Source: Mogibacterium sp. (GTDB lineage Bacteria; Bacillota; Clostridia; Peptostreptococcales; Anaerovoracaceae). Taken from it: 33,761 nt of DNA. Below the pieces are notes generated by a model. It did not search any database. It saw only the letters and a program-made list of their open reading frames with translations, and had not been told where the DNA came from. Both the position numbers and the translations under genes were made by a program. Shown here in pieces: positions 21,221-28,855 of the stretch. The stretch spans positions 1 through 33,761 of the forward strand of contig JAFWFU010000013.1 in the NCBI GenBank assembly GCA_017515425.1. Reading direction: 5' to 3'. Each line of letters begins with the position of its first letter. Within the stretch, counting starts at the first letter, position 1.

Positions 21221-21312
21221 GGAGAGGTACCCAAGAGGCTGAAGGGACTGGCTTCGAATACCAGCAGGCGGTTAATAGCCGTGCGGGGGTTCAAATCCCC
21301 CTCTCTCCGCCA
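21221..21312 (+). tRNA. tRNA-Ser (anticodon CGA)
   Basis: A 92-nt class II tRNA with encoded CCA. The acceptor stem GGAGAGG (21221-21227) pairs with TCTCTCC (21302-21308), followed by G73 and CCA (21310-21312). The anticodon loop is TTCGAAT, anticodon CGA, reading UCG serine codons. It has a long variable arm (CAGGCGG...GCCG...) and T arm GGGGG-TTCAAAT-CCCCC. The anticodon stem CTGGC/ACCAG has a C-A mismatch at the loop-closing pair. It is the apparent integration target of the element that follows. Confidence 0.95.
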
Positions 21313-21464: not shown

Positions 21465-22745
21465 TTAGGTCAGGGCCTTCACGAAATTATCGTATTTTTC
21501 AGCCTCGTCACTTCTGTCGTAATAGTAGTTGTTAAGAGTAGTTTTTTCGTCCATATGACCGGCGATTTGTCTCGCTGTATTAAGATTGAGACCGCCGTCT
21601 ATCATTGTAGAAATCATAGTCTTACGCACCTTATGGATGCTTTTTTCCTCGATGCCCAGTTCTCTGCAGTATTTGGTAATAGTTTTCTGCGATGCGGTAT
21701 AAGTCGCTACAGGCTTGTCGTTAGGACAAAAGATATAATTGTCGACGCTTAAGCCGAGAGCTTTTCTTCTTTCCGTAATCTTATCTATAATAGATTTTGC
21801 TGCAGGAGTTAACGGAACTTTTCTTGCACCATAGGTTCCTTTGGTGTGTTCGATTATCTCTCCGGTAGGGTAGCGGACCATCCTGTTTACGGTGAGACTG
21901 TTCTCATCGATGTCGCAATACTTCAAAGCAGACACTTCACCTATGCGTAGACCGGTATAAAACAGGAATGCTATAACAAGTGGCACAAAATGTTGCACAT
22001 AGTGCTCATCGCTATCGAAAGCCTCCATAGCTCTGGTAATAATCTGTTGCTCCTCTTCCTTGCTGAACACTTGAGTATGATCTTCTTTCTTCCGTGACGG
22101 TTCAAGAACTCTCTTTTTGTCAATCTTGACTTTAAGAAACTCATTGCTATCGACAATCTCACTGTCCACTGCATACTCAAGCATCTGCCTCAGTATTAGT
22201 GAGAAATTGCCGAACTTGTGACGATCCATCTTGTGCTCTCTAATCATCGTGTGGACCCACGAGTCCAGTTCCAGCTTTGTTAACTTAGCGATAGGTTTAT
22301 TGATGATAGGGGAGCCTTCATAATATCTGCGCCAATCCTTTTCAACTCGCATCACTGTTGTCTCGGCAACATGCACAGCTTTGTACTCAATCCAGAGGGG
22401 ATATAAATCCCTGAGCGTGCATGCTTCTTTGATTAAGTCAATGTTAATTGCTTCATAGTGCTGACATATGAGATCCACCAAGTCATCATAGGAAGTTTTT
22501 ACTATTAGCTTACGTCCTTCTTTTTTAGAATCATCCGGCAAATGAGTCCGCCAGCGTCCGTCGCTACCTTGATAGATTTTATATGGATGTTTCTTTAGTA
22601 TAGACTCCTTTCGTGCTTTTCTCATGTCGTCTTCGACGTCCCTCAAATTAATCTTACCATTCTTTTCGAGAAACGCCAGTGTTTCTTCAGGAGAGAACGA
22701 TGCCGAAGGGGCATTGTTCAGCTCATTTGTAATAGCGGTTGCCAT
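21465..22745 (-). CDS. int: Tyrosine-type site-specific integrase
   Basis: 426 residues: an N-terminal ~100-residue arm-binding region, a SAM-like core-binding domain (about 108-210, LRDLYPLWIEYKAVHVAETT) and a catalytic domain (about 225-426). Catalytic residues are visible as R267 (TGLRIGE), K302 or K309, H371-K-V-R374, H397 (AGHMDEKTT) and Y407 (NNYYYD). It inserts and excises the element at the neighbouring tRNA-Ser. The gene points toward the tRNA, the usual arrangement. The ATG at 22745 has a very strong AAAGGAGGTG site. A hairpin (22781-22799) separates it from the mobilisation genes. Confidence 0.96.
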   Translation of the reverse strand: MATAITNELNNAPSASFSPEETLAFLEKNGKINLRDVEDDMRKARKESILKKHPYKIYQGSDGRWRTHLPDDSKKEGRKLIVKTSYDDLVDLICQHYEAINIDLIKEACTLRDLYPLWIEYKAVHVAETTVMRVEKDWRRYYEGSPIINKPIAKLTKLELDSWVHTMIREHKMDRHKFGNFSLILRQMLEYAVDSEIVDSNEFLKVKIDKKRVLEPSRKKEDHTQVFSKEEEQQIITRAMEAFDSDEHYVQHFVPLVIAFLFYTGLRIGEVSALKYCDIDENSLTVNRMVRYPTGEIIEHTKGTYGARKVPLTPAAKSIIDKITERRKALGLSVDNYIFCPNDKPVATYTASQKTITKYCRELGIEEKSIHKVRKTMISTMIDGGLNLNTARQIAGHMDEKTTLNNYYYDRSDEAEKYDNFVKALT

Positions 22746-22774
22746 GCTCCGGCACCTCCTTTCTTCGCAATAAG

Positions 22775-22799
22775 AAAACAGGGCCGTGATTTACGGCCC
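22775..22799 (-). terminator. Terminator-like hairpin between the mobilisation genes and int
   Basis: GGGCCGT (22781-22787) and ACGGCCC (22793-22799) with a 5-nt loop. On the minus strand it is followed by TGTTTTCTT, fitting a Rho-independent terminator or attenuator ahead of int. Confidence 0.6.
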
Positions 22800-22801
22800 C
22801 G

Positions 22802-23050
22802 TCATACGGATAAATTATTAAGTTCATTAATCCGAACCTTCTCGGTCAGCTCCAGGTATTCCTGAAAAGCTGCCTCACGCTCTGCCTCTGTAGATGCAGT
22901 TTTGCTCATTGTGTAGAGTCTGCTTCTCTGAAGCGCCTGCATCTTTTCAACCAATGCTTCTTTTATCTCATCATGATTTATCTCATTTTCATAAACGAAA
23001 TAATCATAGAGCATAAAAAAGAGCGAGCGCTTGATCATATAACCTGTCAT
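22802..23050 (-). CDS. Small helical protein co-transcribed with the relaxase
   Basis: 82 residues, predicted mostly alpha-helical, with a possible coiled coil in the second half (EAEREAAFQEYLELTEKVRINEL). The ATG overlaps the relaxase stop as ATGA, which indicates coupled translation. I recognise no family. The position suggests an accessory mobilisation or integrase-control protein. GAGGTGCAAG upstream can serve as ribosome site. Confidence 0.7.
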   Translation of the reverse strand: MTGYMIKRSLFFMLYDYFVYENEINHDEIKEALVEKMQALQRSRLYTMSKTASTEAEREAAFQEYLELTEKVRINELNNLSV

Positions 23051-24015
23051 CTTGCACCTCGCTCTCTTTGTTTTCTATCCCTTAGAAGATTATCTTTCAC
23101 ATCTTCAGGAACCTTGTCCCAAAGCTTCTGAAACTTCCTTAGAATATGCTCAAGCTCATTAACCTTGCATTGCTCTTCAAATAGAGAAGCAGATACTTCA
23201 TCAATCTTATGATCTCTTCCTGCTATGATACGCTCATCCTGACTTACTCTTGACTCAAGAACCTTTATATAATCTTCTGTAGATTTGAGCATCGTCTCGA
23301 CGTTTGCAAGGTTATGTGCATAGCGCCCGAGCAGCTCGACAGCGTTCTCTTTTGCCTTAGCATTGCCTACCATGCCGATGTCGTTGATAGCACCTCGAAT
23401 CTCTTCGTAGTGCTTCAGAAGTGATGCTGCCTGTTTGTACATCTGCGAAGAAACATGACGCCTCTTTGTAATCTTCTTCGAAATGCCACGAGTCAAATCC
23501 GGATACTTCCGTGTCATGTGATTGTGGAAATCATCCTGTAGCTTTTCCATTCCTTTCGGACCACCCATGAGAGCCTTGGAAGATAATTTCCCATCCGGAG
23601 TAATCGGTACAAAGACCAGATGCATATGCGGATGCGCCTCATCCATATGCACAACCGCGGATATAATATTCTCTTTTCCGTAGCGATCTTTGATGAAATC
23701 GAAAGCATGATTGAAGTATTCCATTTGCTCAGGATATGACATAGCATCAATCCATTCCGGCGTTGCAGTGATCAAAACGTCCTGCATAACCACGCTGTCT
23801 TTCCTTCTTTTCGCTCCGACCTCATCAATTCTCTCGAGCACTTTTGGTCTGTACATACCATCGGGTTTTACCAGATGGTAGTTAAGATGAGTTCTTTCAG
23901 GATCAATATCTTCGTTACTCTTATACTTTTCTTTAAGTCTCTCATGATGATTACATATATGAGTAACGCTCCCAAGTTTCCTTTTTTCAATTCTTAAAAT
24001 TGCAAAATTTGGCAT
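23047..24015 (-). CDS. MobV-family relaxase (Mob_Pre)
   Basis: 322 residues from the ATG at 24015, which has AAAGGAAC nine bases upstream. An open frame continues 80 codons further, across the oriT region, but looks non-coding. The N-terminus matches pMV158 MobM: NHHERLKEKYKSNEDIDPER, where H23 aligns with the His that attacks DNA in MobM, then THLNYHL. The metal motif is H123xDExxPH130xH132 (VVHMDEAHPHMH). The C-terminal third is a coiled coil (about 225-290) for dimerisation. The enzyme nicks oriT and leads the strand into the recipient, using a helper's transfer channel. The candidate oriT lies 260-290 bp upstream of its start. Confidence 0.93.
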   Translation of the reverse strand: MPNFAILRIEKRKLGSVTHICNHHERLKEKYKSNEDIDPERTHLNYHLVKPDGMYRPKVLERIDEVGAKRRKDSVVMQDVLITATPEWIDAMSYPEQMEYFNHAFDFIKDRYGKENIISAVVHMDEAHPHMHLVFVPITPDGKLSSKALMGGPKGMEKLQDDFHNHMTRKYPDLTRGISKKITKRRHVSSQMYKQAASLLKHYEEIRGAINDIGMVGNAKAKENAVELLGRYAHNLANVETMLKSTEDYIKVLESRVSQDERIIAGRDHKIDEVSASLFEEQCKVNELEHILRKFQKLWDKVPEDVKDNLLRDRKQRERGAR

Positions 24016-24158
24016 TTTATTAGTTCCTTTCCGGCTTAAGAACAACCACGCAACAATGAATAGATATACCTCTTTTGCGGAGTAATTCTCATAGCCTAAT
24101 GCATAAATAACGATTTGCGAGGGAAGAAAAAATACACTGCCGGGATGCGATCCTCCTC

Positions 24159-24189
24159 GTGACAACAACGCAACATTTATGGTTGTCAC
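24159..24189. repeat. 8-bp stem hairpin in the origin region
   Basis: GTGACAAC (24159-24166) and GTTGTCAC (24182-24189) are perfectly complementary; the loop contains one ACGCAACA motif. Confidence 0.6.
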
Positions 24190-24276
24190 TGCGGAAAGGC
24201 AGGCTCCGAGATAGGACGCAACACATAAAAGTGATTTGCTGCGACCTATCATCAAAGCCTGCCTGCATCCCTTGCA

Positions 24277-24306
24277 GTGTAACCCACTACACCTTTCTTA
24301 AAGGTG
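24277..24306 (-). other. oriT: Candidate pMV158-type oriT with nick site
   Basis: Read on the minus strand: CACCTTT-aag-AAAGGTG-TA-GTGGGT-TACAC. The middle arm can pair either with the left arm (CACCTTT/AAAGGTG, 7 bp) or with the right arm (GTGTA/TACAC, 5 bp). This is the alternative-hairpin design of the pMV158 oriT. The putative nick sequence TAGTGGG/TTA differs from the pMV158 TAGTGTG/TTA at one base; cleavage would fall between 24283 and 24282. It sits upstream of a MobV relaxase, as expected. Confidence 0.75.
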
Positions 24307-24351
24307 CGTGGGCCAGACGTTCCCTCTGGACTCCCTTAGGCAACACACGCA

Positions 24352-25395
24352 TTAAAATGGTGACTCCGCAAAGGGGGTATCACCTTGTATTGTTGCGTGG
24401 TTGCCCTGGCCGTCGCTAAGTCTCCATACCGAGAGCGCACCGTCACGTACGCACTCTATCGGTAGCTTAGCTTTGGCCAGTTCGCAAGTGCGCTTGCTGA
24501 TGCCAAGCTCGTCCATTCTCTTCATGATCTCCTTCTGGTGCACAGGACCACCGGAGAGCATGGCAAGAAGCTCGCGACTTGCGACAGATTGTTTCGTCTC
24601 ACGAGGCTTGGCTGCCCCGACAGCCTTCACAATCTGATCAGCGGTAAGGTCGACCGTATCTATGAAGTCGACGACACCTCCGCTGAGTGAAAAGAGGATG
24701 GAGTCCCCAAGCGGTGACAGGTTAGACTTGCTGTGTGCCATGACCCTGTGGTCAGAGTTGTCATCATCAGGCGGCCTGCCTATGAGCAAGCTGCTCCTCG
24801 CTGCTGCAATGAAGTCTCCGGAACCACTAGCTCTGTTCTTTGCACTCATGCCTTCAGCCTTGTTGATGTGACCGACGACTATGATGGCGCAGCCCGTGTC
24901 TCTTGCAGCCTCGATCAGATACTCAAGTCTCGGTCTAACTTCGTTGCCGAGGTTCATCGATACATCTCCTCCGAGATATGAGACGAGTGGATCAAGTATG
25001 CAGACCTTCGCATGCGACTGAATGATTGCCTCTCTGATTCTTTTATCCGAAAAAGTGAGACGCTGCTTTTTCTCATTAATAAAAATGAGACGATTCCGAA
25101 CTCCATTCGCTTTTATAAAGCGTGGCACTACGGTATCGTCTGCATCATCTTCTGCATTGATATAGATCACGTTCATCGGACCGCTTGACGCTTCCGTAAA
25201 CGGAAGCGTGTCTCCTCTGGTGAGGATGGCGGCAAGGTTGAGTGCAAAGGTGCTCTTGCCGTCACCCGAGTCTCCCATCAGCATCGTTAGTTTGCCGAAC
25301 GGGATATACGGGTACCAGAGCCAGTTAATCTCTTTCGGCTCCACATGCGCTGCTGTGTACATTTCAAGCGGCGCTTCTCTTAAATTGTTTTCCAT
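24352..25395 (-). CDS. RepA-like hexameric helicase / RecA-fold ATPase
   Basis: 347 residues from the ATG at 25395 (AGAGG nine bases upstream; the ATG at 25401 is too close to it). It has a RecA-like core: WLWYPYIPFGKLTMLMGDSGDGKST (Walker A 41-49), INAEDD (79-84, catalytic Glu area), VCILDP (131-136, Walker B) and VVGHINK (173-179). The C-terminal part (about 265-335) looks like a winged helix (KRMDELGISKRTCELAKAKL). The family resembles RSF1010 RepA and phage/element helicases that unwind DNA at replication or transfer origins. The stop lies next to the oriT region. The last codons overlap one arm of the 15-bp inverted repeat. Confidence 0.88.
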   Translation of the reverse strand: MENNLREAPLEMYTAAHVEPKEINWLWYPYIPFGKLTMLMGDSGDGKSTFALNLAAILTRGDTLPFTEASSGPMNVIYINAEDDADDTVVPRFIKANGVRNRLIFINEKKQRLTFSDKRIREAIIQSHAKVCILDPLVSYLGGDVSMNLGNEVRPRLEYLIEAARDTGCAIIVVGHINKAEGMSAKNRASGSGDFIAAARSSLLIGRPPDDDNSDHRVMAHSKSNLSPLGDSILFSLSGGVVDFIDTVDLTADQIVKAVGAAKPRETKQSVASRELLAMLSGGPVHQKEIMKRMDELGISKRTCELAKAKLPIECVRDGALSVWRLSDGQGNHATIQGDTPFAESPF

Positions 25396-25400
25396 AAACA

Positions 25401-25574
25401 TTAACCTCTCTTTCTTCTTTTAGAACTGTACTCGGGACATAACAGGATAGTTGCACGAAAACTCTGCTTGCAGTCACGCTCGCATTTTCTGCACTGCTCT
25501 GCATAAGTTATCCGGCCTTTATCGTTTAGAAAGAATGCCCATTCTTGTTTATCTTTCTTCGACATCCTAGGCAT
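25401..25574 (-). CDS. Small Cys-rich basic element protein
   Basis: 57 residues from the ATG at 25574, which has GGAGG ten bases upstream; the longer open frame reaching 25754 has no ribosome site and reads through the control region. Sequence: an N-terminal basic helix, then CRKCERDCKQSF...LLCPEY, four cysteines that could bind zinc, and a basic tail SSKRRKRG. The end abuts the helicase start, so they are co-transcribed. I recognise no family; a DNA-binding or copy-control role is possible. Confidence 0.65.
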   Translation of the reverse strand: MPRMSKKDKQEWAFFLNDKGRITYAEQCRKCERDCKQSFRATILLCPEYSSKRRKRG

Positions 25575-25635
25575 ATTCACATCACCTCCAATCTTCATTT
25601 GATGTCTTAGCTTTGAAATAACGTGCAATATAAAT

Positions 25636-25690
25636 AGCGTCCGATGCCCTCGAAATAATGTATGATCTCGGGGCGAAAACGGACGCTTTT
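25636..25690. other. Long imperfect hairpin in the divergent control region
   Basis: AGCGTCCG (25636-25643) and CGGACGCT (25680-25687) are perfectly complementary, with an inner GCCC/GGGC (25646-25649, 25671-25674), and TTTTCTT follows on the plus strand. It could be the end of a small plus-strand RNA, or an operator overlapping the minus-strand promoter. The rest of 25575-25763 shows nothing else I can name. Confidence 0.4.
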
Positions 25691-25763
25691 CTTCGCTGCA
25701 ACGCATTCTTTTATGTGCAGTCGATAGCTGATACCTTACTGCCTTTAAAAGCAAAAATTATTA

Positions 25764-25792
25764 TTGAAATAGTTCGGGTCGGAGGTTATAAT
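25764..25792 (+). promoter_or_regulatory. Near-consensus promoter of the cargo operon
   Basis: TTGAAA (25764-25769), 17 bases, perfect TATAAT (25787-25792). Transcription should start near 25799, giving a leader of about 90 nt before the ATG at 25891. Confidence 0.8.
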
Positions 25793-25808
25793 TCTTGCAT
25801 ACAAGAAC

Positions 25809-25820
25809 ATGCGTTCGCAT
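25809..25820. promoter_or_regulatory. Palindromic operator candidate ATGCG-tt-CGCAT
   Basis: It lies about 10 bases after the expected transcription start of the cargo operon, with half-sites repeated around it (GCATAC at 25798-25803, GCATACGCAT at 25817-25826). A repressor bound here would block the strong promoter. Confidence 0.5.
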
Positions 25821-25890
25821 ACGCATATATCATCTCCCTCTACTAATAGGAGAAATCTGAGCACAAAAACGGAACTACTTTTCAGAAAAA

Positions 25891-26916
25891 ATGAAAAAAG
25901 ATTTTTCGCGCGATAATTGGCGCAATGAATACCTATATTTAATAGACGAAGAATTCGATGATGAGGATTATCTTCCGGAAGATGACTCGGATTATTCTGA
26001 TTTGGATTACATAGATTCAGATCTACTACTAGCCGAAGAAGAAGGAAGCAGTGAAGAAGGATATTGGTACAGCAATTCTCTTTCTGAACTGGATGCTATC
26101 CAAAGAGGTACACTCGTCATTGATGATGAGGATATAGAATCTCTGATTACAGGCTATGAAACAGACGAAGCACTGCTATCCTTGAGATACGGTTTTAAGG
26201 GCTATGCAGAATATGAAGCTGATGAGGATTATGAGGAAGAGTTATCTGCAGAACTTAGTGAAGACGATGATCCGGCAATTGGCTTCTTAAGACTCCGTGA
26301 CATAGAGATTCCTGATGATGCTTCTGAAGTAAAGAAATTGAAAAGAGACATCCGCATGGAAGCTCTTCGGCGACTGGAGGAATCTGCAAGAACACTCAGC
26401 GACTTCAAGAACTTGGTTAAGTGGTACGACGAGCTTGATGCCAACAAATTTAGAAGATGGCGCTACCATGAGATATACAGGAGCGGAGAAGATATGCCGC
26501 TTGAATCAGGAGAAGCAGAAGACGGTGCGATCTTTCCGACCTATATGAGCGATGTAATATCCAGGCAGTTAAGAAAAGGCGACTTTCTCGATTTCATATA
26601 CTGCAAGCCTGACACAATACATGAGCTTGTGACAACGGGCTATATAATTCGCTCTCTCAAGGCATTAAAGGGAAAAGATAAAGAACTGTTCTTCTTTAAA
26701 GTTTTGGAGTCGCTATCCTCGGTAGATGTAGCAGCAATGCGAGAGGTGTCAGACAGGTATATACGAAGAATATGGCGAAAGTTGATGGATGATATTCGCC
26801 GGGATAGTATGGAGGCCATCATTACTCTAAATGAATCCGAGCGTTCTTTGACCGGCCAAGAGCGCAAGTTCTTGACAACACATCACGACGAGTATGTGCT
26901 TCGGATGGAGGCATAG
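25891..26916 (+). CDS. Very acidic protein with C-terminal sigma region-4-like HTH
   Basis: 341 residues. About 46 of the first 130 are Asp or Glu, with many Tyr and few basic residues, a composition like DNA-mimic domains. The second half is different: RDIRMEALRRLEESARTLSDFKNLVKWYDEL (helical), then a segment TYMSDVISRQLRKGDFLDFIYCKPDTIHELV and KDKELFFFKVLESLSSVDVAAMREVSDRYIRRIWRKLMDDIRR, which reads like a sigma-70 region-4 helix-turn-helix. The ATG has no ribosome site within range: AGGAG at 25849-25853 is too far upstream. It is first in an operon with RhuM and a DUF6076-like protein. Possible roles are element control or a regulator of the two genes behind it. The gene is real by length and coding pattern; its function is unknown. 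Confidence 0.8.
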   Translation: MKKDFSRDNWRNEYLYLIDEEFDDEDYLPEDDSDYSDLDYIDSDLLLAEEEGSSEEGYWYSNSLSELDAIQRGTLVIDDEDIESLITGYETDEALLSLRYGFKGYAEYEADEDYEEELSAELSEDDDPAIGFLRLRDIEIPDDASEVKKLKRDIRMEALRRLEESARTLSDFKNLVKWYDELDANKFRRWRYHEIYRSGEDMPLESGEAEDGAIFPTYMSDVISRQLRKGDFLDFIYCKPDTIHELVTTGYIIRSLKALKGKDKELFFFKVLESLSSVDVAAMREVSDRYIRRIWRKLMDDIRRDSMEAIITLNESERSLTGQERKFLTTHHDEYVLRMEA

Positions 26917-26972
26917 ATTTATAGATGAGCAGAAGGACTTATGATAATATAACTGTTGGGAAAGGAGCGCCT

Positions 26973-27983
26973 ATGAAGGATAATCAAAAGCATGAGATAG
27001 TTTTATATCAGGTCGATGACGCAAATGTTTGTGTAAGCGTCATATTTAAGGATGAGACTTTTTGGCTGACAACAAAGTCTATGTCAGAGTTATTTGGTAT
27101 TAACACTCAAGGCATTACAAAACACCTTCAAAACATATATGAAGAAGAGGAACTGGTAAAAGAGGCAACTTGTTCCAAAATGGAACAAGTTCAAATCGAA
27201 GGCGATAGAAGCGTTTCGAGGATAGTCGACTATTATAATCTTGATGCTATCATTGCCGTTGGATATCGCGTCAATTCCAAAAAAGCTACAAGATTCCGTC
27301 AATGGGCAACTAAGACCTTAAAGGAATATATAACGAAAGGCTTTGTGCTTAACGATGAACTTCTAAAAAACGGAAAACCTTTCGGACGCGATTATTTTGA
27401 TGAACTCCTTGAACGCATACGTGAGATAAGAGCCAGTGAGCGCAGAGCTTATCAGAAGATTGCTGATGTGTTTGAGCAGTGTAGCTATGACTATGATAAG
27501 AACAGTGAAACCACAAAAGCCTTCTACGCTTTTGTGCAGAATAAGCTTCACTATGCAGTCACCGGACAAACAGCTGCAGAGATAATATATGATCGTGCTG
27601 ATGCCGAGAAGCCTACTATGGGTTTAACCACATGGAAAGGTGCTCCGGATGGCAAGATCCTAAAGCGTGACGTTACAATTGCGAAGAACTATCTGAATGA
27701 AAAAGAATTATCTAGACTAAACAGGCTTGTAACTATGTTTATAGATTACGCAGAGTTAATGGCAGAGGATGAGGTTCTTATGAGCATGCAGGACTGGCTA
27801 GATCAGACCAATCAGTTTCTGACGAACAACCGGAGGAAGGTGCTTGAGGATAGAGGAAAAGTATCTCACGAGGCAGCTACTCTAAAAGCAGAGAAGGAAT
27901 ACGAGACATTCCGTGTTCGCCAGGATCAAGAATATATATCAGAATTCGACAGACAAACAGAAAAGTATCTTAAGGGAGAATAA
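26973..27983 (+). CDS. rhuM: RhuM-family protein
   Basis: 336 residues from the ATG at 26973, five bases after AAAGGAG; an in-frame ATG at 26925 lacks a site. The N-terminus has the family pattern ETFWLTTKSMSELFGINTQGITKHLQNIY, a winged-helix-like domain, followed by YYNLDAIIAVGYRVNSKKATRFRQWATKTLKEYI and a helical C-terminus. RhuM was named from a Salmonella pathogenicity island, and relatives are common on mobile elements, often near restriction or other defence genes; no biochemical activity is established. It shares the operon with the acidic HTH protein, and its stop overlaps the next start by one base (TAATG). Confidence 0.88.
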   Translation: MKDNQKHEIVLYQVDDANVCVSVIFKDETFWLTTKSMSELFGINTQGITKHLQNIYEEEELVKEATCSKMEQVQIEGDRSVSRIVDYYNLDAIIAVGYRVNSKKATRFRQWATKTLKEYITKGFVLNDELLKNGKPFGRDYFDELLERIREIRASERRAYQKIADVFEQCSYDYDKNSETTKAFYAFVQNKLHYAVTGQTAAEIIYDRADAEKPTMGLTTWKGAPDGKILKRDVTIAKNYLNEKELSRLNRLVTMFIDYAELMAEDEVLMSMQDWLDQTNQFLTNNRRKVLEDRGKVSHEAATLKAEKEYETFRVRQDQEYISEFDRQTEKYLKGE

Positions 27984-28855
27984 TGAAGCAATTATTCGAG
28001 CATTCAAAATCATTCTGGGTAAGATATAGCGATTATGCCATTGTTGAGGATAGTAATGGCATAAAGTATCTTAAGGCGACGAAAGATGCCAAACCGGATA
28101 TATATGATCCTACAGATTCGTTGGAAGAAATCGTTGTAAAGGCACTTAATGTAGGTCGAGTTTGCATGGGGATCGATAGGCCGGAGGAAGAAAAAAACGA
28201 AGCCGTTTATCAATTCGTGAAAGAATACGGACTTCTAGGTCTTATGACCGCTCTTCCTACCACGCCGAGGTTTCTATCATGTGATAATGTCTTTCTCCCG
28301 ATAAATCACTTTATAAAACGCGAATCAATGGAAGTGTTTGAATATCTTCTGTACTTCTATCCATTTGAAAGACCCAGCATTAGAAAAAACGGCGTAGAAT
28401 ATAGTGTTGAAATTGAGGGAGACAATGATATGGTAGCTCTTGCAATGATGTCAGATGGAAGACCGGACGAAGTGCATCTGTCTTTTCAACGTGAGTACTC
28501 GGAAAGGCTTGATTGGCTCAGACAACAGTTTGTGGACTGGGCTTTTACCATGACAACAATATTCTTGTTTTATCATGACTATGACAGCATTTCTGATAAA
28601 GGAAAGGAATTCTATAGACCAAGCATGGCGGCATATGACGGAATAATGCCGACATATCATATAGAGCTGATGGATGACAGACCGATGCTTGTTTGGAACT
28701 TGAATTCACTTCTTCAAGGTATTCAGCTAATGGTATGCAAGATGCTGACCGATGATAGTAATCCTGTAAAAATGTGCCCGGGTTGTGGAAAAGCATTTAT
28801 AGCGAAAACACCAACGGAACTATTCTGTAGTCCGTCTTGTAAGACTTCCGAGTAA
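27983..28855 (+). CDS. DUF6076-like protein with C-terminal zinc ribbon
   Basis: 290 residues. The body is helical and hydrophobic-rich without clear membrane spans (DWLRQQFVDWAFTMTTIFLFYHDYD). The C-terminal ~27 residues CPGCGKAFIAKTPTELFCSPSCK form a CxxC...CxxxC ribbon like that closing DUF6076 and ABATE-type proteins. Some ABATE-type ribbons act in nucleic-acid binding. Translation is coupled to rhuM through a TAATG overlap, so the two probably work together. Assignment to DUF6076 is from memory of the pattern, not a search. Confidence 0.7.
   Translation: MKQLFEHSKSFWVRYSDYAIVEDSNGIKYLKATKDAKPDIYDPTDSLEEIVVKALNVGRVCMGIDRPEEEKNEAVYQFVKEYGLLGLMTALPTTPRFLSCDNVFLPINHFIKRESMEVFEYLLYFYPFERPSIRKNGVEYSVEIEGDNDMVALAMMSDGRPDEVHLSFQREYSERLDWLRQQFVDWAFTMTTIFLFYHDYDSISDKGKEFYRPSMAAYDGIMPTYHIELMDDRPMLVWNLNSLLQGIQLMVCKMLTDDSNPVKMCPGCGKAFIAKTPTELFCSPSCKTSE

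Follow-up and report, generated by a model that had tools for sequence, protein, structure and literature searches.

A predicted transfer origin of the pMV158 type and an adjoining predicted single-stranded fold in an integrative mobilizable element of a Mogibacterium-like genome

Where does the transfer of an integrative element encoding a MobV relaxase begin, and what is the DNA on the far side of that point for? This question is raised by an intergenic region in a contig of a Mogibacterium-like genome, of which the whole stretch analysed (33,761 nucleotides) is called the window here. A sequence-only reading had placed a pMV158-like oriT on the minus strand upstream of a MobV gene. We hold with high confidence that positions 24133-24329 of the minus strand are a transfer origin (oriT) of the pMV158 type, of which the sequence is a new member. 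The predicted nick lies exactly between two abutting folds, with the inverted repeat IR3 on one side and a predicted three-way junction on the other.

A mobilizable element at tRNA-Ser and its relaxase

The oriT-bearing element is an integrative mobilizable element (IME) at tRNA-Ser, as the window holds an integrase, an attachment site in a tRNA gene, a relaxase and an oriT. Its left border is the 3' end of tRNA-Ser(cga) (21221-21312), and a block of minus-strand genes comprises the tyrosine integrase, an ORF of 82 amino acids, the MobV relaxase and, beyond the oriT region, an AAA_25 ATPase (Table 1). The relative L039 is chromosome-like up to the tRNA end and then element-like from 21508 to 28808. 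Copies of the attachment core that lack the tRNA, found in L065, L061 and L060, are as would be expected of right ends or element junctions. In L001 (L060 is the place of L001), the same attachment core has other DNA in place of the tRNA body (reverse strand, left of the core), which suggests a neighbouring second element at the same tRNA-Ser site in L001 and L060.

The right end of the element was not found in the contig. No copy of the core lies right of 21312 in the window when up to two mismatches are allowed, exact matches never exceed 9 bases, and the element's own genome holds one core copy. No mating-pore genes were recognised among the 11 window proteins scanned with Pfam and NCBIfam, the element's right end being missing from the contig. 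A helper was not found, and virus contigs gave no match to the window MobV protein (a profile search returned 18 loci).

Several further features of the element were observed. A RhuM-family protein is encoded at 26925-27983 (370.5 bits) in the likely cargo part, and both genes flanking it are without a Pfam or NCBIfam match. The product of a small Cys-rich gene (25401-25754) was judged by eye to resemble 'cysteine-rich VLP' proteins, and a regular expression found such a gene in 6 of 36 oriT loci. No conclusion is drawn about its co-occurrence with the junction described below, as the pattern matches the junction-less L025 and misses an annotated gene in L154. The whole oriT region is surrounded by a 41-nt inverted repeat (80%; 24043-24083 and 24363-24403), whose unit (GCAAAAGAGGTAT..TTGTTGCGTGGTTG), judged by eye, is conserved among close relatives and forms three tandem copies before mobV in L034. 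These units resemble iterons or binding sites, and may belong to a replication origin.

The gene 3' of the oriT encodes a MobV relaxase, as the sequence-only reading had said, with 172.9 bits against NCBIfam NF041497 (cut-off 100) and a Mob_Pre score of 193.8 bits against a Pfam cut-off of 25.5. An upstream TTG start given for mobV in the ORF list is a mechanical call, and the ATG at 24015 is preferred. In a sequence match against a structure library, the MobV profile matched the solved chain 4lvi, a 'plasmid recombination enzyme' (E 1.1e-38), which we take to be MobM. NHHER of the window protein aligns with KHNER of 4lvi, whose histidine is taken to be the MobM nucleophile H22, and the window protein has HMDEAHPHMH, which fits the HxDE...PHMH motif. 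MOBV relaxases occur widely among the mobile elements of Gram-positive bacteria (PMC5863519).

Table 1 Features of the element and of its predicted transfer origin.
Feature	Position	Strand	Basis
Left attachment core	21289..21312	+	3' end of tRNA-Ser(cga); same core without tRNA in L065, L061, L060
Tyrosine integrase of element	21465..22745	-	Pfam Phage_integrase, 67.1 bits
82-aa ORF	22802..23050	-	no Pfam or NCBIfam match at E 0.01
mobV relaxase gene	23047..24015	-	ATG at 24015; Pfam Mob_Pre 193.8 bits; NCBIfam MobV
Predicted three-way junction, transferred strand	24133..24281	-	ssDNA fold; recurrence in relatives
P1 (predicted)	24281-24274/24140-24133 and 24271-24265/24148-24142	-	ssDNA fold
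P3 hairpin GTGACAAC/GTTGTCAC (predicted)	24159..24189	-	fold
P2 long hairpin (predicted)	24197..24264	-	fold; compensatory changes in L003, L004, L005, L013
TACAC, IR2 right arm and start of P1	24277..24281	-	fold and IR2 scoring
Predicted MobV nick G24283/T24282	24282..24283	-	alignment to pMV158 GTGTG/TT (PMC5863519) and to relatives
IR3 right arm GTGGG, ends at predicted nick	24283..24287	-	DNA fold and covariation
IR1 right arm AAAGGTG	24290..24296	-	overlaps IR2 left arm GTGTA (24288-24292)
IR1 left arm CACCTTT	24300..24306	-	sequence and DNA fold
IR3 left arm CCCAC	24308..24312	-	DNA fold; pairing with nick-site base
Upstream hairpin CCAGA/TCTGG inside GGAGTCCAGAGGGAACGTCTGGC	24313..24329 (CCAGA 24329-24325, TCTGG 24317-24313)	-	relatives, by eye
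AAA_25 ATPase gene, upstream of oriT	24352..25401	-	Pfam, 95.4 bits

The oriT core and its covariation in relatives

Re-read on the minus strand, the arms, letters, coordinates and nick position given in the sequence-only reading all proved right. Its three arms are present and the middle one is able to pair with either neighbour, i.e., with the left arm over 7 bp (loop AAG) or, as GTGTA (24292-24288), with TACAC over 5 bp, in which case the loop GTGGGT contains the nick. Parts that go beyond that reading are the IR3 arm, the upstream hairpin and the three-way junction 3' of the nick. At the position of the upstream hairpin relatives have other letters, e.g., GAGGG/CCCTC in L016 and AAGGGG/CCCCTT in L014 (by eye). 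On the minus strand, TA (24289-24288) separates the IR1 and IR3 arms and T24282, the predicted 5' end of the transferred strand, follows GTGGG. The predicted nick lies 267 bases upstream of mobV.

At the nick site, TAGTGGGTTA differs from TAGTGTGTTA in one of ten bases, so that nine agree with pMV158 as had been claimed, and TAGTGNGTTA has a single exact occurrence in the window. When the intergenic region 24019-24351 was shuffled 20,000 times with dinucleotides preserved, the decamer alone (TAGTGNGTT followed by A or C) turned up in 94 shuffles, as a chance resemblance without any oriT would allow; together with an abutting 7-bp hairpin it turned up in none. Given the conservation, covariation and linkage to MobV set out below, we regard such a coincidence as extremely improbable.

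Like the pMV158 oriT and its relaxase MobM (MOBV1), the region has three overlapping inverted repeats, IR1, IR2 and IR3, with a GTGNG/TT nick at the foot of IR3; the oriT precedes the relaxase gene and points the same way, and the relaxase domain gives a profile match. It differs from pMV158 in its arm sequences, in an IR2 of 5 bp instead of 9, and in the upstream hairpin, the three-way junction 3' of the nick and the chromosomal element that carries it. The mobM promoters lie in and beside the pMV158 oriT (PMC5863519), whereas here 267 bases separate nick and mobV.

The sequence-only reading had made the second hairpin, IR2, with the nick in its loop, the key structure. Its assignment of a MOBV-type oriT is supported, and this IR2-centred account, as worded there, is not. 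Single-stranded 24325-24262 folds at z -4.0, and the predicted fold is IR3 around IR1. In pMV158, the IR3 hairpin is extruded before MobM acts and MobM shifts IR3 to IR1; footprinting detected no IR2 hairpin (PMC5863519). Complementarity within IR2 does lie above that of shuffled sequences over 31 distinct cores (sum 142, shuffled maximum 121), which would suit a nick presented in the IR2 loop with no further role for the right part of the region. However, IR2 pairing ends after 0-3 bp in 12 of these 31 cores and the structure goes on for about 150 nt, and we consider this explanation very unlikely.

Next to MobV relatives the same core recurs at the equivalent position 5' of mobV, its arms differing in sequence, and TAGTGGG/TTACACTGC is identical in L002-L005, L013 and L015. 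A better nick match elsewhere upstream of mobV was looked for in related elements, and none was seen. The loci collected next to MobV relatives yielded 31 distinct cores with a hairpin of at least 6 bp, two of which (L049 and L109) were judged to be chance matches. For many MobV loci the flanking DNA examined contained no recognised core, and the distance between core and mobV is 2-7 kb in several genomes.

An IUPAC pattern for the core and the IR3 motif that did not specify either variable base was scanned over 391 genomes of the class and occurred in 22 of them, a reversed control pattern in 7. A MobV match was present in 17 of the 22 core-bearing genomes in comparison to 52 of 391 overall (hypergeometric 1.6e-12). 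The core-bearing genomes without a MobV match at E 0.001 were G125, G170, G200, G299 and G307. These cores possibly reflect a borrowed relaxase, a broken assembly or, for G125, a chance match. The locus from G200 (L181) has a clear junction. BLAST of 24262-24345 against plasmids returned three records.

To score IR3, the C-N-C-[A/G]-C motif nearest IR1 was taken regardless of N and compared with the variable base of GTGNG in 50 distinct 45-nt cores; cores from the pattern scan hold the IR3 motif by construction, with N free. The variable nick-site base was complementary to the IR3 left arm in all 42 scored cores (A/T 30, C/G 8, G/C 4). None of 100,000 permutations reached 42 (maximum 35), a figure that is not a true probability because the cores are related to one another. 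Separate MobV lineages share the C/G type (the window group and L103/L113/L114) and likewise the G/C type (L084 and L098/L138/L142). Eight of the 50 cores were unscored, either without the motif (L014 and L148 with GTGAG; L093, L094 and L139 with CACCG) or for want of an exact IR1 (L025, L092, L184). Visual inspection indicates concordance for L025 and L092 and discordance for L184 (GTGGG with CGCAC and CTCAC). The oriTs with a GTGAG nick (L014, L148, L152) have GCGAAC in place of the IR3 motif and belong to separate lineages, two Alphaproteobacterial plasmids among them.

A predicted three-way junction 3' of the nick

Past the nick, the strand predicted to be transferred folds again in the model. 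Taken as single-stranded DNA, 24282-24120 reaches -44.2 kcal/mol, whereas its shuffles average -18.5 (z -9.2, 0 of 200 shuffles). P1 starts at the second base after the nick, where TACACTGC pairs with GCAGTGTA about 130 nt further on, followed by GGGATGC with GCATCCC; the hairpins P2 and P3 lie inside P1, and after P1 of the window comes TATTTTTTC. TACAC thereby has a second pairing option, GTGTA (24137-24133), as the base of the junction. We regard this modelled fold of the transferred strand as very likely real.

Recurrence was assessed with a P1 test that required a start at most 4 nt from the nick, a span of 80-165, at least two hairpins and at least 7 pairs. The first set comprised 36 hand-listed MobV-adjacent oriTs, with L002 standing in for the window and with near-copies, L049, L109, L143, L151 and L152 left out. 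Sixteen of them passed; in every one P1 starts at +2 or +3, and their z values range from -3.8 to -10.8. Among the 20 that failed, L069 folds strongly (z -5.9) and the other 19 have z of -3.4 to +1.9. The test is loose, with up to 13 of 100 shuffles passing per locus. A stricter test, demanding a perfect helix of at least 7 bp that starts at most 4 nt from the nick, was passed by 12 of the 36 oriTs (at random places, by 4 to 33 of 400 per locus). In a relaxase tree of 37 rows with midpoint root, the passing rows are all found on the same side of a branch supported at 100/99. That side holds 18 rows, of which 16 pass, L069 (hand-labelled) fails the P1 test and L034 is cut by the contig end; on the other side none of 19 rows passes.

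A second set was collected by the core pattern only and gave 24 distinct cores, three of them with too little downstream DNA. Of the 21 that were folded, 20 had z of -3.2 or lower (L179, +0.9), and P1 lay at most 4 nt from the nick in 12. Of the 21, seven were already represented by the first set or by the window, leaving 14 further oriTs, in 6 of which P1 was found under the first settings. A wider test (start at most 6 nt from the nick, lengths 150 and 195), which was chosen after this first result, was passed by 10 of the 14; with identical settings, 63 of 560 stretches drawn at random from these loci passed. L177, L179, L184 and L188 failed. Kin among the 14 are L174/L187, L166/L170/L173 and L169/L183/L190, the last three having a P1 of 15 pairs from +2. 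A strong fold without P1 is seen in L069, L177 and L178, and no fold in L179.

The letters of P1 vary widely between families (TACACTGC/GCAGTGTA, TACTCATA/TATGAGTA, ATACCGCCCCG/CGGGGCGGTAT), and P2 and P3 are not visibly alignable between them. In four close relatives that could be aligned, both partners differ in 5 of 51 pairs and one sequence has lost the pairing in 5, counts that come from few sequences. Neither a sequence motif shared by the junctions nor a polymerase site was found. CGGCAGGAAAAC, located between P2 and P3, is common to L166, L170, L171, L173, L174 and L187 and is a possible candidate for a protein contact.

Which molecule would fold was addressed by comparing strands in 27 hand-listed junction loci, including L177 and L188, which fail the P1 test, with L178 dropped as a duplicate. 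The transferred strand was more stable than its complement in 25 of 27 loci with DNA energies and in 26 of 27 with RNA energies, the mean gain being 7.1 and 12.4 kcal/mol, respectively. In a comparison set of 24, which itself contains three junction-type rows (L069, L176, L180), the difference was also negative, in favour of the transferred strand, in 20 with DNA energies (mean -1.5, against 7.1 kcal/mol in the junction loci) and in 12 with RNA energies (mean -0.8). Stem mismatches of the 1x1 type were G-T in 30 cases and A-C in one on the transferred strand, and A-C in 27 and G-T in one when the complement was folded; part of this G-T excess is due to the energy model and to the G-rich strand (G 1287, C 1031). 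Such a strand bias and mismatch pattern would not be expected of a duplex cruciform or of an opposite-strand RNA.

The main rival to a role in second-strand synthesis is that the junction forms part of nick control, extruding beside IR3 on supercoiled DNA, competing with IR2 for TACAC and keeping G/T unpaired for cutting or re-joining. Such control would fit a P1 that in 16 of 36 oriTs begins 1-2 bases past the nick, an IR3 that ends at the nick, and a TACAC with two alternative partners. However, the strand asymmetry argues against a duplex cruciform, since in a cruciform both strands fold, and the junction is missing from the MOBV oriTs outside the group (19 rows). On balance, we find nick control rather unlikely.

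The direction of the neighbouring genes bears on whether the fold acts as RNA. In the window group mobV is downstream and co-directional with the nick. The longest nearby ORF runs towards the nick in L007, L072, L073, L118, L133, L166, L169, L170, L174, L181, L183 and L190; these ORFs were called mechanically, and some shorter ones run the opposite way. The junction stays 3' of the nick under either direction of the next gene, and the strand preference is, if anything, larger in the relatives with an ORF towards the nick. The oriT module of L072-L074, L118-L124 and L136 points the other way from mobV and, in the three loci whose distance was measured (L072, L118, L136), still lies about 240-300 bp upstream of that gene, so that the polarity of transfer would be flipped with the junction still 3' of the nick.

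A mobV leader or attenuator, or a small RNA in the transferred-strand sense, would be in keeping with a fold located on the coding strand in the gap from the AAA gene to mobV, with TATTTTTTC after P1, with a z of -8.65 for 24345-24120 under RNA energies and with the tolerance of G-T pairs. Against this, ORFs running towards the nick in many relatives make an mRNA leader unlikely as a general role, as does the reversal of the oriT relative to mobV in L072/L073/L118. A simple consensus scan found no sigma-70-like promoter in 23950-24500, nor was a terminator-like site found there, in a scan that is blind to P1 because only loops of 3-8 were allowed. Rfam searches of 23900-24500 and of 8 loci gave no family at its gathering score. 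The Rfam candidates listed for 23900-24500 were sub-threshold eukaryotic miRNA and Listeria sRNA matches only, and were discarded. An RNA role thus appears improbable to us. As the fold is better on the transferred strand and independent of gene direction, the junction is probably a single-stranded-DNA element and not an mRNA leader.

A candidate second-strand origin at the leading end

To the computed arms, covariation, recurrence, strand preference and independence of gene direction we add an account of transfer in which cutting, the use of the histidine, the direction of transfer and the role in second-strand synthesis are what we infer. MobV would recognise the IR3/IR1 hairpin; IR3 would be extruded and MobV would open its base, by analogy with MobM in pMV158 (PMC5863519). 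The relaxase would then cut G24283/T24282, probably via the histidine, and stay on the 5' end, and the minus strand would leave 5' end first with mobV leading. The first ~150 bases, from one base after the cut, would fold into the single-stranded three-way junction. This junction would be a start of second-strand synthesis recognised by its structure, i.e., similar to a single-strand origin (sso), and may also protect the relaxase-bound 5' end.

We give the whole account, from the MobV cut to a leading-end junction serving as second-strand origin, about an even chance, and put the sso-type role of the junction slightly below even. Tentatively, and at somewhat less than even odds, we read the junction as an unnamed single-stranded-DNA element in a group of MOBV elements, in which a built-in second-strand origin or 5'-end guard keeps its structure and not its sequence and starts 1-2 bases 3' of the nick. 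The sso-like reading draws on structure without shared sequence, on strand specificity and on the constant place at the leading end; a strand-specific folded region is present by prediction only.

In F-like plasmids, single-stranded promoters of the Frpo type form a structure near the front of the strand that enters the recipient. The junction resembles them in being a structure in the leading part of the entering strand. It differs from them in that the relaxase is another one, no promoter-like sequence was recognised here and the fold adjoins the nick. The conserved loop motif of ssoA, TAGCG followed by A or T, is absent from the window and occurs in the fold set only in L035.

The function of an sso depends on structure and single-strandedness, and the sso of pBAA1 was replaced by a different sequence of the same structure (PMC4595007). 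The predicted junction resembles ssoA (about 160 nt), ssoU, ssoT, ssoW, ssoL and ICEBs1 sso1, origins that are active when single-stranded and in which structure can replace sequence (PMC4595007, PMC5703833). Unlike these classes, it has a fixed place 1-2 bases after the nick and the form of a three-way junction, and it lacks the ssoA motif, the only motif compared. IMESag-rpsI of Streptococcus agalactiae, with the relaxase MobSag, is likewise an IME with a MobV and a three-IR oriT, and its nick site GTGcG/TT was predicted and is reported as determined (PMC5090054). It carries a putative ssoA downstream of its relaxase gene (PMC5090054), whereas here the folded element abuts the nick. In the open-access literature we found no description of the junction or of the covariation between nick base and IR3, which may be in print elsewhere.

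How the second strand is made for the single strand of an IME in the recipient is little studied in the parts of the literature consulted, and identifying such origins in other integrative and conjugative elements (ICEs) will need structure as well as sequence (PMC4595007). A structure in a fixed place beside the nick offers a direct, testable candidate for a second-strand origin in many genomes. The pairing of the nick base with IR3 provides a rule by which MOBV oriTs may be located and the strand that would move first predicted.
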